From contig JAGASM010000036.1 in the NCBI GenBank assembly GCA_017621735.1, positions 1-64,000 of the forward strand: a DNA stretch of 64,000 nt, given 5' to 3'. Positions within the stretch are counted from its first letter, which is position 1. Every line of letters starts with the position of its first letter. A program made the translations under genes and the position numbers. Under the pieces are notes generated by a model. It ran no database searches. It had not been told where the DNA came from and worked only from the letters and a program-made list of their open reading frames with translations. This document shows, piece by piece, positions 8,470-62,068 of the stretch. This DNA comes from Clostridia bacterium (GTDB lineage: Bacteria > Bacillota > Clostridia > Christensenellales > Borkfalkiaceae).

Positions 8470-8473
8470 AGAA

Positions 8474-8810
8474 AAGCCCGATACAAGTCGGGCTTTTTGC
8501 TTGTTTTTCTGCCGATGAGGTTTGAATACTTTCTGTCGCGCATTGCAAAAAACTTTTGAAACGGAAGCACAAGTCAAAGCCCGATACAAGTCGGGCTTTT
8601 TGCTTGTTTTTCCGCGGTTGAGGCTTGAATACTTTCTGTCGCGCATTGCAAAAAAACTTTTGAAGCGGAAGCGCAAGTCAAAGCCCGATACAAGTCGGGC
8701 TTTTTGCTTGTTTTTCCGCCGTTGAGGCTTGAATGCTTTCTGTCGCGCATTGCAAAAAACTTTTGAAGCGGAAGCGCAAGTCAAAGCCCGATACAAGTCG
8801 GGCTTTTTTT
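8474..8810 (+). repeat. Fourfold terminator in 103-104 bp tandem repeats
   Basis: The hairpin AAGCCCG-ATACAAGT-CGGGCTTTTT occurs at 8474, 8577, 8681 and 8784. The spacer units share TTTCTGTCGCGCATTGCAAA and GAAGCGGAAGCGCAAGTC. GAAACGGAAG before the second hairpin matches the last codons of the sialidase-like gene, so the unit seems to include the gene tail. Each hairpin is an intrinsic terminator. This fills most of the gap to sigK. Confidence 0.9.
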
Positions 8811-24025: not shown

Positions 24026-24110
24026 AAGTACGAAAGGGAAAAATCGCTTTTGTTGGAAAAAATCATAAATTCTATCTGGAAGTCCGACGCGTTTCAAGTG
24101 CGGGATTGCT

Positions 24111-24324
24111 CGGCTTTTCCGTTGCGTGCGCGAACAAAAACTTGCGTGCGCTTCCGCAAAAAAGCCCCGCACTGCGTTTGCAGTGCGGGGCGCTATCATT
24201 AGATGATTTTGTTCGGCTTTTCCGTTGCGTGCGCGAACAAAAACTTGCGTGCGCTTCCGCAAAAAAAAACCCGCACTGCGCTTGCAGTGCGGGGGCGCTA
24301 TCATTAGATGATTTTGTTCGGCTT
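24111..24324. repeat. Tandem duplication of hydA tail plus terminator, 103-105 bp units
   Basis: Units at 24111-24213 and 24214-24318, nearly identical. Each holds TTCCGTTGCGTGCGCGAACA, a GC-rich terminator hairpin (24165-24190; 24270-24293) and, in minus-strand reading, the last hydA codons for NKII and its stop. The 24197-24213 copy of these codons is detached from the gene. Confidence 0.9.
24261..24293 (-). terminator. Terminator of the hydCBA operon
   Basis: CCCGCACTGC / GCAGTGCGGG with a T run on the minus strand, 10 bp past the hydA stop. A second copy stands at 24159-24190. Confidence 0.85.
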
Positions 24325-35940: not shown

Positions 35941-35978
35941 AAGACGAACGAAAAAATTTTCGTTCGTCTTTTTTTTTG
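35941..35978 (+). terminator. Terminator of the XRE operon
   Basis: AAGACGAACGAAAA / TTTTCGTTCGTCTT perfect 14-bp arms with a run of nine Ts. Confidence 0.92.
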
Positions 35979-36084
35979 TAGCCTTTAGCGGAAAAGAACT
36001 ACCACTTGAAGCGGTGGTATAAAAAATCTATCGCAAAAAAAGTGGATTTTCCGACCGCAAATAAAAAACACAGGAGGATTCGTC

Positions 36085-36135
36085 ATGACGGTAGCCTTTA
36101 GCGGAAAAGAACTACCACTTGAAGCGGTGGTATAA
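36085..36135 (+). CDS. Repeat-borne 16-residue mini-ORF, copy 2
   Basis: MTVAFSGKELPLEAVV, then TAA. GGAGG at 36073-36077 stands 7 nt before the ATG, an ideal ribosome binding site. Whether it is translated is unknown; it may equally be a structural part of the repeat. Confidence 0.3.
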   Translation: MTVAFSGKELPLEAVV

Positions 36136-36210
36136 AAAATCTATCGCACCCCCTGTGTTATAAAAAAGTGGGGTTTCCGACCACAAATAAAAAACACAGG
36201 AGGATTCGTC

Positions 36211-36261
36211 ATGACGGTAGTCTTTAGCGGAAAAGAACCACCACTTGAAGCGGTGGTATAA
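36211..36261 (+). CDS. Repeat-borne 16-residue mini-ORF, copy 3
   Basis: MTVVFSGKEPPLEAVV, then TAA, with the same GGAGG 7 nt upstream. Two codon changes against copy 2 keep the frame and length. Confidence 0.3.
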   Translation: MTVVFSGKEPPLEAVV

Positions 36262-36364
36262 AAAATCTATCGCAAAGCCCCCTGTGATATAAAAAGGCGG
36301 GGTTTCCGACCACAAATAAAAAACACAGGAGGATTTTTCAGTATGCGCTTTTTGGATACTTGTC

Positions 36365-38855: not shown

Positions 38856-40899
<2,044 letters not shown>

Positions 40900-40959: not shown

Positions 40960-41940
40960 ATGGAAAACAACAAACGTCCCGAAAGTATGGAACGCATCGT
41001 AACGCCCGCTTTGGCGCAAGCGTTTATCGAAGAACAAGTGAAAGAAATTCGCGCACAAGTGGGAGATAGAAAGGTGCTCCTCGCGCTTTCGGGCGGGGTT
41101 GACTCGTCCGTCGTCGCGGCGCTTTTGATCAAAGCGATCGGCAAGCAACTTGTCTGCGTGCACGTCAATCACGGCTTGCTCCGCAAGGGAGAGCCCGAAC
41201 AGGTCGTCGAGGTATTCCGCAATCAAATGGATGCAAACCTCGTATACGTCGATGCGGTCGAGCGCTTCCTCGGCAAGTTGGAAGGAGTGGAAGAACCGGA
41301 GAAAAAACGTAAGATTATCGGCGCGGAATTTATTCGCGTATTTGAGGAAGAAGCAAGAAAGTTGGAAGGAATTGACTTCCTTGCACAAGGGACGATTTAT
41401 CCCGACATTCTCGAAAGCGGTCCTGTCAAGGCGCACCATAACGTAGGCGGACTTCCCGACGATTTGCAGTTTGAACTTGTCGAACCGTTGAAATTCCTCT
41501 TCAAAGACGAAGTGCGCGTCGTCGGAAAAGAGTTGGGACTCCCCGACGGTATGGTATACCGTCAGCCGTTCCCCGGCCCCGGGCTTGGGGTGCGTTGCCT
41601 CGGCGCCATCACGCGGGAAAGATTAGAAGTTGTTCGCGAGTCGGATGCGATCTTGCGGGAAGAATTTGCAAAGAACGGGTTGGAAGGACAGGTTTGGCAG
41701 TACTTTACCGCCGTTCCCGATTTCCGTTCCGTCGGCGTGTTGAACGATACGCGTACGTATGCGTATTCCGTTATTATTCGCGCCGTCAATACCGTAGACG
41801 CGATGACTGCTACGGTTGCGCACGTTCCGTTTGCACTTTTGCAGCACATTACCGAACGCATTACGCACGAAGTGCCCAACGTCAACCGCGTACTCTTCGA
41901 CCTTACGCCGAAGCCCGTCGCGACCATTGAGTGGGAATAA
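40960..41940 (+). CDS. guaA: GMP synthase, ATP-pyrophosphatase part only (no glutaminase domain)
   Basis: 326 residues from ATG 40960 (ACGGAGG upstream). PP-loop SGGVDSS (44-50), the synthetase block [11 protein letters not shown], and the dimerisation domain with [14 protein letters not shown] and the end KPVATIEWE. Ordinary bacterial GuaA has about 510 residues with an N-terminal GATase1 domain; here it is absent, as in the split archaeal type. Amidates XMP to GMP using ammonia, or a partner glutaminase encoded elsewhere. Confidence 0.93.
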
Positions 41941-53137: not shown

Positions 53138-54163
53138 ATGAACGAAGAAAAACTCAAAGCATTAGACGCGGTGCTTGCACAAATTGAAAAGGCGTACGGG
53201 AAGGGTGCGATTATGAAATTAGGCGCAGAAGCGGGAAATACGGACATCGAAACGATTCCCACGGGCTGCCTTGCACTCGATTTGGCGCTCGGAATCGGCG
53301 GACTTCCCCGCGGAAGAATGATTGAAATCTACGGACCGGAATCTTCCGGTAAAACGACGGTCGCCCTTCATGCCGTTGCACAAGCGCAAGCGCTCGGCGG
53401 AATTGCGGCGTTTGTCGATGCGGAACACGCGCTCGACCCCGTCTATGCAAAAAAACTCGGCGTTAAGTTGGACGAACTCTACGTTTCCCAACCGGATACG
53501 GGCGAACAGGCGCTCGATATCGTCGATTCGCTCGTGCGTTCTTCCGCAGTGGATATTATTGTCGTCGACTCGGTTGCGGCGCTTACGCCGAAGGCGGAAA
53601 TCGAAGGGGATATGGGAGATAGCCACGTCGGATTGCAAGCGCGCCTCATGAGCCAAGCGCTCCGGAAACTGACGGCAATCGTCAACAAGAGCAAGACGTG
53701 CGTCGTCTTTATCAACCAACTGCGCGAAAAGGTTGGGGTAATGTTTGGAAATCCCGAAGTTACTCCCGGCGGTAAGGCGCTTAAGTTCTACGCGTCCGTT
53801 CGGATCGACGTAAGAAAAATTGATACGTTGAAAGATTCCGAAGGCGCTGCGGGGAACCGTACGCGCGCAAAAATCGTCAAAAACAAACTCGCGCCTCCCT
53901 TCCGTCAGGCGGAATTTGACATCATGTACGGCGAAGGCGTTTCGCAAGAGGGTTGTATCATCGACCTCGGCGTACAGTACGACGTCATCAAAAAGAGCGG
54001 AGCATGGTACAGTTATAACGACAATAAGGTGGCGAACGGCCGCGAAAAAATGCGTCAATTCTTGCGCGATAATCCCGAACTCGCTTCGGAAATGGAAGAA
54101 AAGATCCGCGCTGCGGCAAAGGGACTTTCCGCCGAAGACGTCGCGGGCGCAGAAGAAGCGTAA
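53138..54163 (+). CDS. recA: Recombinase RecA
   Basis: 341 residues. Walker [10 protein letters not shown] (66-74), Walker [11 protein letters not shown], loop L1 region [21 protein letters not shown]2 with [22 protein letters not shown], and KAxFR end. Homologous recombination and SOS. SOS box not recognised upstream, since it lies in the cinA operon. Its last codons are repeated downstream (see repeat). Confidence 0.98.
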
Positions 54164-54349
54164 CAAACCGCTTGTCGCTTGACGAAACGCCTTGCACGGG
54201 GTTTCTTTATTCTCCGTCCGCACGCAAAGAAGTGGCGGGCGCAGAAGAAGCGTAACAAACCGCTTGTCGCTTGACGAAACGCCTTGCACGGGGTTTCTTT
54301 ATTCTCCGTCCGCACGCAAAGAAGTGGCGGGCGCAGAAGAAGCGTAAAA
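54143..54349 (+). repeat. Tandem duplication of the recA tail plus terminator, 92-bp units
   Basis: The last recA codons for AGAEEA and the stop occur at 54143, again at 54235 and 54327, exactly 92 bp apart. Between them lies a shared spacer with CTTGTCGCTTGACGAAACGC and a weak terminator GAAACGCC / GGGGTTTC. The two full units are almost identical, so the duplication is recent. Confidence 0.95.
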
Positions 54350-54383: not shown

Positions 54384-56261
54384 ATGCATCACGGGTTTAT
54401 CAAAGTTGGCGTTCGCGCACCCAAGTTAAAGGTGGCGGATGCGGAATATAACGCGCGCGTTTTATTAGAAGAAATGGCGGCGGCGGATGCGGAAGGGGTA
54501 GAAATTCTCGTCTTCCCAGAACTTTGCATCAGCGGAGCGACTTGCGGCGATTTGTTTTTTCAGCAAGCGCTTATCAATCAATGTCTTACCGCACTTCAAG
54601 CGCTCGTAAAAGGGACGGAGGGGAAAAATCTTCTCGCGTTCGTCGGGCTTCCGTTTTTCTTCGAGGGGGCGTTGTATAATTGCGCCGCCGCAATCAAAGG
54701 AGGAAAACTGCTCGCGCTCGTTCCCAAGCGTAACTTCCGATTAAGCGGGCATGACGGACGTTATTTTGCCGTCGGGGCGGACACGGTAGGCACGGCGGAG
54801 TGTTTCGGCGCGCACGTTCCATTCGGGACGAATATCCTCTTGCGCGCGGGGCAGGTATGCGTTGCGTGCGAAATCGGAGAGGATTTGTACGCGCCCGACG
54901 CGCCCTCTTCCCACCATGCTTTGGCGGGGGCGAACGTCATCGTCAATCTGTGTGCGGAAGAAGAAACCGTTTGCCGTGATCAAACGCGGCGCCTTTTGGC
55001 GGGAGCGCAGTCGGAAAAACTTTCTTGCGCATATCTCCTTGCGTGTGCAGGAGAGGGAGAATCGACGACGGACGGCGTATACGGCGGACATTGCCTCGTT
55101 GCAGAGGACGGGGAAATCGTACGGGAATCCCTTCCCTTTGAAGGGAACGGCTGTGATTGCGAAATAGACGTCGAGGCACTTTGCGTTTCCCGTCGCAAAA
55201 AATACGCGTTAAAGAGTGAAAACTACGTTTGTGTTCCCGTTACTTTTGAACAGTCTTTTTTTCCGTTGACGAGGGGGGTCATTAAGAATCCGTTCCTCTC
55301 CTCGTTAAACGATACGGCAAAAGAACGGATTCTCACCATACAAGCGCGTGCGCTCGCAAGAAGAATTGCGCATACGGGGGCAAAGAGTGCCGTCATCGGG
55401 ATTTCGGGCGGGCTTGATTCAACGCTTGCTTTTCTCGTCGCCGTTCGCGCGTTTGATTTTTTACAGCGTTCGCGGAAGGAAATCGTTGCAATCACAATGC
55501 CGGGATTTGGTACGACGGACGCAACGAAGGGGCATTCTCTTCGTCTTATGCAAGAGTTGGGCGCAACGGCAAAAACGGTGGATATCGTCCCGTCCGTACG
55601 CTGTCATTTTTTAGATATCGAACACGACGAACGCGATCGGGGCGTAACGTACGAAAACGCGCAAGCGCGCATGCGGACGCTCGTTTTGATGGACGTTGCA
55701 AACAAGACGGGCGGGCTCGTCGTCGGCACGGGCGATTTGAGCGAACTTGCCCTCGGTTGGTGTACGTATAACGGCGATCACATGTCCATGTACGCGGTGA
55801 ACGCGGGAATTCCCAAAACGCTTGTCAAAGAACTCGTCCGTTACGAAGGGGATCGGTTGGGCGGAAACGTTCAAAGCGTTTTGAATGGAATTCTTTCTAC
55901 GGAGATCTCTCCCGAACTTCTTCCACCTGATGAAAAAGGGCAAATTGCGCAAAAAACGGAGGATCTGGTCGGACCGTACGAATTGCACGATTTTTATTTG
56001 TATCACTGTATCAAAAATGCGTTTTCCCCTTCAAAAATTTTGTATTTGGCACAGGAAGCGTTTGGGACGCAATATTCCAAAGAAACGCTCAAAAAATGGC
56101 TGCGCCGCTTTTACGGTCGTTTTTTCTCCCAACAGTTTAAGCGCTCGTGTTCGCCCGACGGGGTAAAAGTTTGCTCGGTAGGGGTTTCTCCGCGCGGAGA
56201 ATGGCAAATGCCGTCCGACGCTTGCGTAACCGCATGGCTTGCCGAGTTGGAGTGTGAATAA
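54384..56261 (+). CDS. nadE: NAD synthetase with glutaminase-like domain lacking the catalytic Cys
   Basis: 625 residues (CGGAGG upstream). Nitrilase-like domain (1-270) keeps Glu46 (VFPELCISG) and Lys115 (LVPKRNF), but where glutamine-dependent NadE has EICEDLW this protein reads CEIGEDLY, so Gly165 replaces the nucleophile; the nearest Cys is Cys162. The synthetase domain is intact: ISGGLDSTLAFLVA, TKTGGLVVGTGDLSELALGW-like core and ILSTEISPELLP. It should amidate deamido-NAD with free ammonia. Flanked by its own terminator. Confidence 0.93.
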   Translation: MHHGFIKVGVRAPKLKVADAEYNARVLLEEMAAADAEGVEILVFPELCISGATCGDLFFQQALINQCLTALQALVKGTEGKNLLAFVGLPFFFEGALYNCAAAIKGGKLLALVPKRNFRLSGHDGRYFAVGADTVGTAECFGAHVPFGTNILLRAGQVCVACEIGEDLYAPDAPSSHHALAGANVIVNLCAEEETVCRDQTRRLLAGAQSEKLSCAYLLACAGEGESTTDGVYGGHCLVAEDGEIVRESLPFEGNGCDCEIDVEALCVSRRKKYALKSENYVCVPVTFEQSFFPLTRGVIKNPFLSSLNDTAKERILTIQARALARRIAHTGAKSAVIGISGGLDSTLAFLVAVRAFDFLQRSRKEIVAITMPGFGTTDATKGHSLRLMQELGATAKTVDIVPSVRCHFLDIEHDERDRGVTYENAQARMRTLVLMDVANKTGGLVVGTGDLSELALGWCTYNGDHMSMYAVNAGIPKTLVKELVRYEGDRLGGNVQSVLNGILSTEISPELLPPDEKGQIAQKTEDLVGPYELHDFYLYHCIKNAFSPSKILYLAQEAFGTQYSKETLKKWLRRFYGRFFSQQFKRSCSPDGVKVCSVGVSPRGEWQMPSDACVTAWLAELECE

Positions 56262-56364: not shown

Positions 56365-56850
56365 TGGGGGTAAGGTTGTTTATCGTGCGCTGTTCGTTAG
56401 GTTTTTTGCTTATGCCGTTTGCATATCTTTGCGGGGTTGGGTTGTTTTCCGTGCGCTGTTCGGTAGGTTTTTTGCTTATGCCGTTCGCATATCTTTTCGG
56501 GGGGATGGGTTGTGTTTCCCGTGCGGCGTTTGGTAGGTTTTTGCTTGTCGCCGTTTGCATATCTTTTCGGGGGTAGGGTTGCTTGCCGTGCGGCGTTCGG
56601 TGGGTTTTTGCTTGTCGCCGCTTGTGTATCTTTGTGGGGTTGGGTTGTTTCCCGTGCGGCGTTCGGTAGGTTTTTGCTTATACCGCTTGCATATCTTTGT
56701 GGGGCAGGATTGTTTATCGTGCGCCGTTCGGTGGTTTTTTTGCTTATACCGTTTGCGTATCTTTGTGGGGGTAGGGTTGTTTCCCGTGCGGCGTTCGGTA
56801 GGTTTTTGCTTGTCGCTGCTTGTGTATCTTTGTGGGGTAGAGGTAGGACT
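56365..56850. repeat. 60-63 bp tandem repeat, about eight copies
   Basis: GGTTGTTTCCCGTGCGGCGTT-CGGTAGGTTTTTGCTT-ATACCGTTTGCATATCTTTG is repeated about eight times with drift. The period is close to a multiple of three, so long spurious frames exist on both strands; none has a ribosome binding site. Fills the nadE-rny gap. Confidence 0.9.
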
Positions 56851-61519: not shown

Positions 61520-61860
61520 GCGCGCGGGGTGCATGCCGTAGAGTGATGGCGGGAGCATGGCTTTCGGTGCGGGCTTTTTACGGGGCGCTTTGAAAAGGAG
61601 TGTTGTCTTTGTTTTGCGTTTTCGGCATGACTTTCGGTCGCGTTCGGGTTTCCGTTTTGAAATTACGCGGCGCGGGACAGATTGGGCAAATCCTGCATGC
61701 CGTAGTGTGATGGCGGAACGGTTGTTCGTGGTGGGCTTTGTGCGGGGAGCTTTGAAAAGGAACGTTGTCTTTGTTTTGCGTTTTCGGCATGATTTTCGGT
61801 CGCGTTCGGTTTCCGTTTTGAAATTACGCGGCGCGGGACGGATCGGGCAACCGCGCGCGC
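61520..61860. repeat. Two copies of a 175-185 bp repeat
   Basis: GCATGCCGTAGAGTGATGGC (61530) and GCATGCCGTAGTGTGATGGC (61697) head two similar units containing TTGTCTTTGTTTTGCGTTTT, TTTCGGTCGCGTTCGG and AAATTACGCGGCGCGGGAC. No gene. Confidence 0.85.
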
Positions 61861-62068
61861 GGTTTTCTGTTTAGAACGGTAGAGCGGAGCGTGCGGTTTT
61901 TTGTTTAGAACGGTAGAGCGCAGCGTGCGGTTTTCTGTTTAGAACGGTAGAACGCAGCGCGCGGTTTTTTATTTAGAACGGTAGAGCGTAGTGTGCGGTT
62001 TTCTGTTTAGAACGGTAGAGCGGAGCGTGCGGTTTTTTGTTTAGAACGGTAGAGCGCAGCGTGCGGCA
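61857..62068. repeat. 35-37 bp tandem repeat, six copies
   Basis: GTGCGGTTTTCTGTTTAGAA-CGGTAGAGCGCA recurs six times with few changes, right up to the nrdR promoter. The shortest unit of all arrays in the window. Confidence 0.9.

Follow-up and report, generated by a model that had tools for sequence, protein, structure and literature searches.

The NAD synthetase (NadE) encoded in a draft genome of a gut Clostridia bacterium (Christensenellales; Borkfalkiaceae; GCA_017621735.1) carries a glutaminase domain that has lost its catalytic nucleophile, and we consider it most probable (roughly 85%) that the protein is an ammonia-only NAD synthetase, derived from a glutamine-dependent one, in which the pseudo-glutaminase domain is retained as a scaffold. 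In the window, by which we mean the whole 64,000-nucleotide stretch analyzed (positions 1 to 64,000 of contig JAGASM010000036.1), the nadE gene occupies 54384..56261 of the forward strand, on which guaA and guaB (below) also lie. The open reading frame encodes a long-form enzyme of 625 amino acids with Pfam matches to CN_hydrolase and NAD_synthase, and the product reaches a full-length family score against NF002730 (PRK02628), with 721 bits at an NCBIfam cut-off of 473. The stretch between recA and nadE (54135-54347) consists of 2.3 copies, 98% identical, of a 92-base unit made up of the recA tail and its terminator-like sequence. Tandem repeats also occur in other intergenic regions (8473-8808, 24106-24324, 35978-36335, 56365-56838, and 61530-62066; unit lengths 34-198 bases), a large number for 64 kb.

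Damage to NadE is concentrated in the glutaminase domain

The closest solved relative of the window NadE is the glutamine-dependent NAD synthetase of Mycobacterium tuberculosis (PDB). Aligned with it, the nitrilase-like N-terminal domain (54384..55253, approximately residues 1-290, with CN_hydrolase at 8-252) has an incomplete Cys-Glu-Lys triad: Glu46 (54519..54521) and Lys115 (54726..54728) are kept and correspond to Glu52 and Lys121 of the M. tuberculosis enzyme, while the position of the nucleophile, Cys176, is taken by Gly165 (codon GGA, 54876..54878) in the motif CEIGEDLY. The first-pass annotation of this DNA had reported the Gly substitution together with the retention of Glu46, Lys115, and the synthetase domain, and was correct on each of these points; when relatives were aligned around the motif, as it had proposed, Cys was present in 24 of 24 newly fetched relatives of the same genus and in 234 of 246 distinct homologues. 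It described a single substitution, however, and missed the other changes in the domain. The YRE loop (54729..54758) is degenerate, reading RNFRLSGHDG for xxLPNYxEFYE, so that FRLSGHDG stands against PNYxEFYE, the loop is two residues shorter, and its second glutamate is lost. Position 52 (54537..54539) is Ala, where 99.6% of intact relatives have a Tyr equivalent to Tyr58 at constriction 1 of the ammonia tunnel in the M. tuberculosis enzyme (PMC6946656). The Trp that follows the motif has become Tyr169, and a conserved pocket Ser has become Cys190.

To compare the two domains, we counted the losses at columns where 95% or more of 229 intact relatives agree, of which 52 lie in the glutaminase domain and 123 in the synthetase domain. 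The window NadE has lost 13 of the 52 glutaminase columns (mean 0.64 and maximum 5 in the intact relatives), compared with 5 of the 123 synthetase columns, which is within the intact range (mean 1.3, maximum 12). The damage thus falls mainly on the glutaminase domain, and the synthetase domain with its C-terminal loop (55311..56258, approximately residues 310-625) is intact by its domain match and its invariant columns. According to published structures, the YRE loop and Tyr58 participate in glutamine binding, position the catalytic Lys, and contribute to constriction 1 of the ammonia tunnel (PMC6946656). With the nucleophile, the YRE loop, and the constriction Tyr all gone, the sequence leaves no plausible glutaminase activity for the window NadE, although the continued presence of Glu46 and Lys115 counts against an ammonia-only reading.

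A sequencing or assembly error at codon 165 can be dismissed despite the draft status of the source assembly, as 13 conserved positions are altered in a frame that is still open and the same pattern is seen in many other genomes. It is also very improbable that Cys162 (54867..54869), or another Cys, is the nucleophile in a shifted alignment. Cys162 is indeed the nearest Cys, only three residues before Gly165, as the first-pass annotation had pointed out, but a Cys at this column accompanies the true nucleophile in 123 of 297 intact relatives, which rules out a shifted alignment with Cys162 as the substitute. The structural model has residue 162 within a strand (158-164), with Gly165 starting the next helix at the place of the nucleophile turn.

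Loss of the NadE nucleophile recurs among relatives

We read NadE sequences from the genus, family, and order of the host and from named Clostridia. Among 331 distinct homologues, 297 have Cys at the nucleophile position and 34 do not, with Gly in 23 of the latter; seven further family members, picked because they looked short, all lack the Cys. In the host family, 22 of about 189 NadEs read are non-Cys. Elsewhere in the order the figure is about 20 of 82, spread over about 13 further families, in a sample skewed toward weak matches, and the non-Cys counts are not to be read as frequencies. One bacterium recorded as Oscillospiraceae has Ser at this position.

In a tree of the synthetase domain, the dead NadEs form 25 to 32 clades made up of pseudo-forms only, the number depending on weak branches. 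A single clade of 18 dead family members was rejected (AU test, p = 7e-68), and so was a single clade of the three dead NadEs in the genus of the window (p = 0.013) when the nearest relatives of the window NadE were included; without those relatives, one clade was not rejected at the genus level. One ancestral loss of the glutaminase is ruled out by the tests of the 18 family members and the three genus members.

The losses in the dead NadEs are restricted to the glutaminase domain and differ in extent. One relative has only the Cys to Gly change and Tyr52 to Val, with an intact YRE loop; the window NadE has lost the YRE loop and has the Glu and Lys; other dead forms are also without the Glu or the Lys, and the shortest are 544 to 600 residues long. 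Because the dead forms are nested, we infer an order of steps in which Cys to Gly, with changes of Tyr52, would come first, loss of the YRE loop second, and loss of Glu46 or Lys115 with shortening of the domain last. With its nucleophile lost, its synthetase conserved, and its pattern recurrent, the window NadE belongs to this group of pseudo-glutaminase long forms.

Other arrangements were seen as well. Five genomes of the genus have a short, ammonia-type NadE, one of them together with a long form. Two more genomes of the genus, both 97% complete, gave only weak relatives and neither a long nor a short NAD synthetase, and these bacteria may import NAD precursors past the NadE step. Genomes G063 and G173 have a dead long NadE and a frame of 246-251 amino acids with weak similarity to the synthetase domain, which is possibly a second, ammonia-type enzyme.

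The dead domain is predicted to keep its fold

The model of the window NadE has a mean pLDDT of 88 and a pTM of 0.84, and it matches the M. tuberculosis structure 6ofc over its length with a TM score of 0.89. The N-terminal domain is modeled mostly with pLDDT above 90, a high-confidence prediction that the nitrilase fold is kept, and even the shortest relative, of 544 amino acids, is predicted to have this fold. A structural role for the pseudo-glutaminase domain is plausible from these models: unable to split glutamine, it would be kept as a folded part of an enzyme that is probably octameric.

The replacement residue itself is informative. In 16 of 21 events in which the nucleophile was replaced by a residue, that residue is Gly, where about one-sixth would be expected from single-base changes (p = 3e-9). 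The position is therefore still constrained, which speaks against free decay. A tight turn suited to Gly, or a wider chamber, would explain the preference.

Two other accounts of the domain have to be weighed here, both of which we regard as unlikely. In the first, the domain is without a role, is merely decaying, and will eventually be deleted, as might be expected from losses that accumulate and from relatives in which it is up to about 100 residues shorter. The preponderance of Gly is at odds with this account, as are frames that remain open across 540-640 codons in dead forms, a fold predicted with high confidence even for the shortest form, and the retention of most other conserved columns of the glutaminase domain. 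In the second, the dead chamber is an inlet for free ammonia, with Gly165, a small residue 52, and the loss of the YRE loop opening the tunnel to solvent. The lost residues do form constriction 1 of the tunnel (PMC6946656), and of 33 dead forms, 24 have a replacement of Tyr52, almost always a change to Ala, Ser, Cys, or Val; small residues, however, would also be expected from the loss of packing and the relief of the tight nucleophile turn.

Free ammonia is the likely nitrogen donor

The draft genome (1.78 Mb, 95.6% complete) contains one NadE by protein search. No second NadE was found in the protein and PF02540 searches of this draft; the remaining PF02540 matches are weak, and the one within the window is GMP synthase. 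Genes for the supply of NaAD are present, with NadA and NadB together on one contig and PncB on another, and therefore NaAD should be made and NadE should be needed. The absence of a working glutaminase, a complete synthetase, the sole NadE found, and the upstream pathway together make free ammonia the likely donor. The synthetase domain would form NaAD-AMP and take NH3 directly from the cytoplasm. Long-form NadEs are known to accept free ammonia in vitro, and the human enzyme is equally specific for the two donors, with a kcat/Km of 0.49 per s per mM for ammonia versus 0.45 for glutamine (PMC6946656). Many NAD synthetases have no glutaminase domain at all, and these use ammonia in vivo (PMC3376133). 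The first-pass annotation had proposed direct use of ammonia and structural retention of the domain, and the losses at the site, the sole NadE found, and the predicted fold all argue for this proposal.

A separate, stand-alone glutaminase of the nitrilase type could instead feed the synthetase, as in Thermus thermophilus, since two-subunit NAD synthetases exist (PMC3376133). We consider this quite improbable, as the docking site is still filled by the dead domain, and at the locus itself no stand-alone nitrilase gene was noticed adjoining nadE. The missing part of the draft genome could encode another NadE or a separate glutaminase.

No Amt ammonium transporter was found in the host genome by a search that gave one in 14 of 14 control genomes, and the closest intact relative has Amt. 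Amt is present in 54 of 201 genomes, and in 0 of the 15 dead-NadE genomes among them. Because Amt is mostly confined to other genera, this evidence is weak, and so is the case for Amt loss as the driver of glutaminase loss.

Two other amidotransferases of the genome show similar losses

The GMP synthase in the window, guaA (40960..41940, 326 amino acids), consists of the ATP-pyrophosphatase part only. It begins 60 bases after guaB, the IMP dehydrogenase gene (39442..40899, identified by eye from its translation), a gap that leaves no room for a GuaA glutaminase, and no other GuaA was found in the genome. Many family members have a short GuaA with about 70-88% identity to this one, and in some of them a long form is present as well.

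The class I glutaminase family has just two matches in the genome, CarA and HisH. HisH is intact, with the motifs GICLGMQ and FHPEKS. CarA, encoded next to carB in an arginine gene cluster (L402:16901-17962, the same as L367:988-2049; contig C19), reads GVGLGHQ for GICLGHQ and QFQPST for QGHPEA when compared with the Escherichia coli small subunit, and its triad is fully lost, with Cys changed to Gly, His to Gln, and Glu to Ser. The NCBIfam name of this dead CarA is still that of a glutamine-hydrolysing enzyme. In a further sample of about 230 kb of the genome, CarA and HisH were again the only class I glutaminases, and motifs of PurF, GlmS, and GatA were not found.

Dead NadE and short GuaA go together in the host family. 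A short GuaA alone is found in 16 of 18 genomes with a dead NadE versus 8 of 83 with an intact one (Fisher p = 6e-11), and the association persists under permutation confined to genera (p = 0.0005). Short-only GuaA is likewise frequent in genomes that have no long NadE (14 of 25). Two dead-NadE genomes are exceptions in having a long GuaA. On the tree, two to three supported independent pairs agree for NadE and GuaA and none is opposed, too few for significance. The best reading of this pattern is a recurrent shift from glutamine to ammonia that takes in several enzymes and of which the window NadE is a part. We hypothesize that lineages with plentiful ammonia lost the NadE glutaminase repeatedly, along with the glutaminases of further amidotransferases (GuaA and CarA in this genome). 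On a broader scale, we lean toward the view that glutamine is being given up for free ammonia, many times over, across a whole order of gut Clostridia, in NadE, GuaA, CarA, and perhaps further ATP-dependent amidotransferases; NadE and the single CarA examined would retain the dead glutaminase as a folded scaffold, whereas GuaA occurs in a form that lacks it.

Comparison with known systems

Long NadEs are regarded as glutamine users, and a complete set of interface motifs has been proposed as sufficient for that call (PMC3376133). Database rules, including these published motif rules, would misname the NadEs described here as glutamine-utilising. In a survey of about 900 genomes, every GMP synthetase and carbamoyl-phosphate synthetase recorded had a glutaminase component (PMC3376133, Table 1). 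In the literature searched, which left most subscription journals outside its scope, we found no earlier report of a natural dead or pseudo-glutaminase in an NAD synthetase. Ranging in their losses from a single residue to a shrunken domain, the relatives illustrate in nature how a channelled two-domain enzyme may abandon its first reaction, and the series makes it testable why the domain is kept and whether the loss is driven by the gut's ammonia supply.

Another enzyme, mitochondrial carbamoyl-phosphate synthetase I, also carries a dead glutaminase domain, in which the catalytic Cys is replaced by Ser. The domain is kept in this ammonia-using enzyme (5dot, 6uel), whose glutaminase fold and pathway are unrelated to those of NadE, and which is a direct parallel for the dead CarA of the host.

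With the M. tuberculosis NadE, an octameric-type member of PRK02628/NF002730, the window NadE shares the domain order, the fold, the synthetase motifs, the C-terminal loop, and the Glu and Lys of the triad, but it has lost the nucleophile Cys, the YRE loop with its second Glu, the constriction Tyr, and the pocket Ser. The C176A variant of the M. tuberculosis enzyme (3sdb, 3seq, 3sez, 3szg) is a laboratory form in which the nucleophile alone is removed and the whole structure is retained; the loss in the window NadE is natural, wider, and recurrent. The single-domain NadEs of E. coli and Bacillus subtilis use free ammonia, the donor that we would expect for the window NadE as well, but they are without the N-terminal domain and the C-terminal loop. 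The window NadE has both, its N-terminal domain being folded in the model, and is thus not of the single-domain kind. By descent, the window NadE is a member of the glutamine-dependent family; it departs from that family in its catalytic residues, and it resembles the ammonia-dependent NadEs in its expected behavior.
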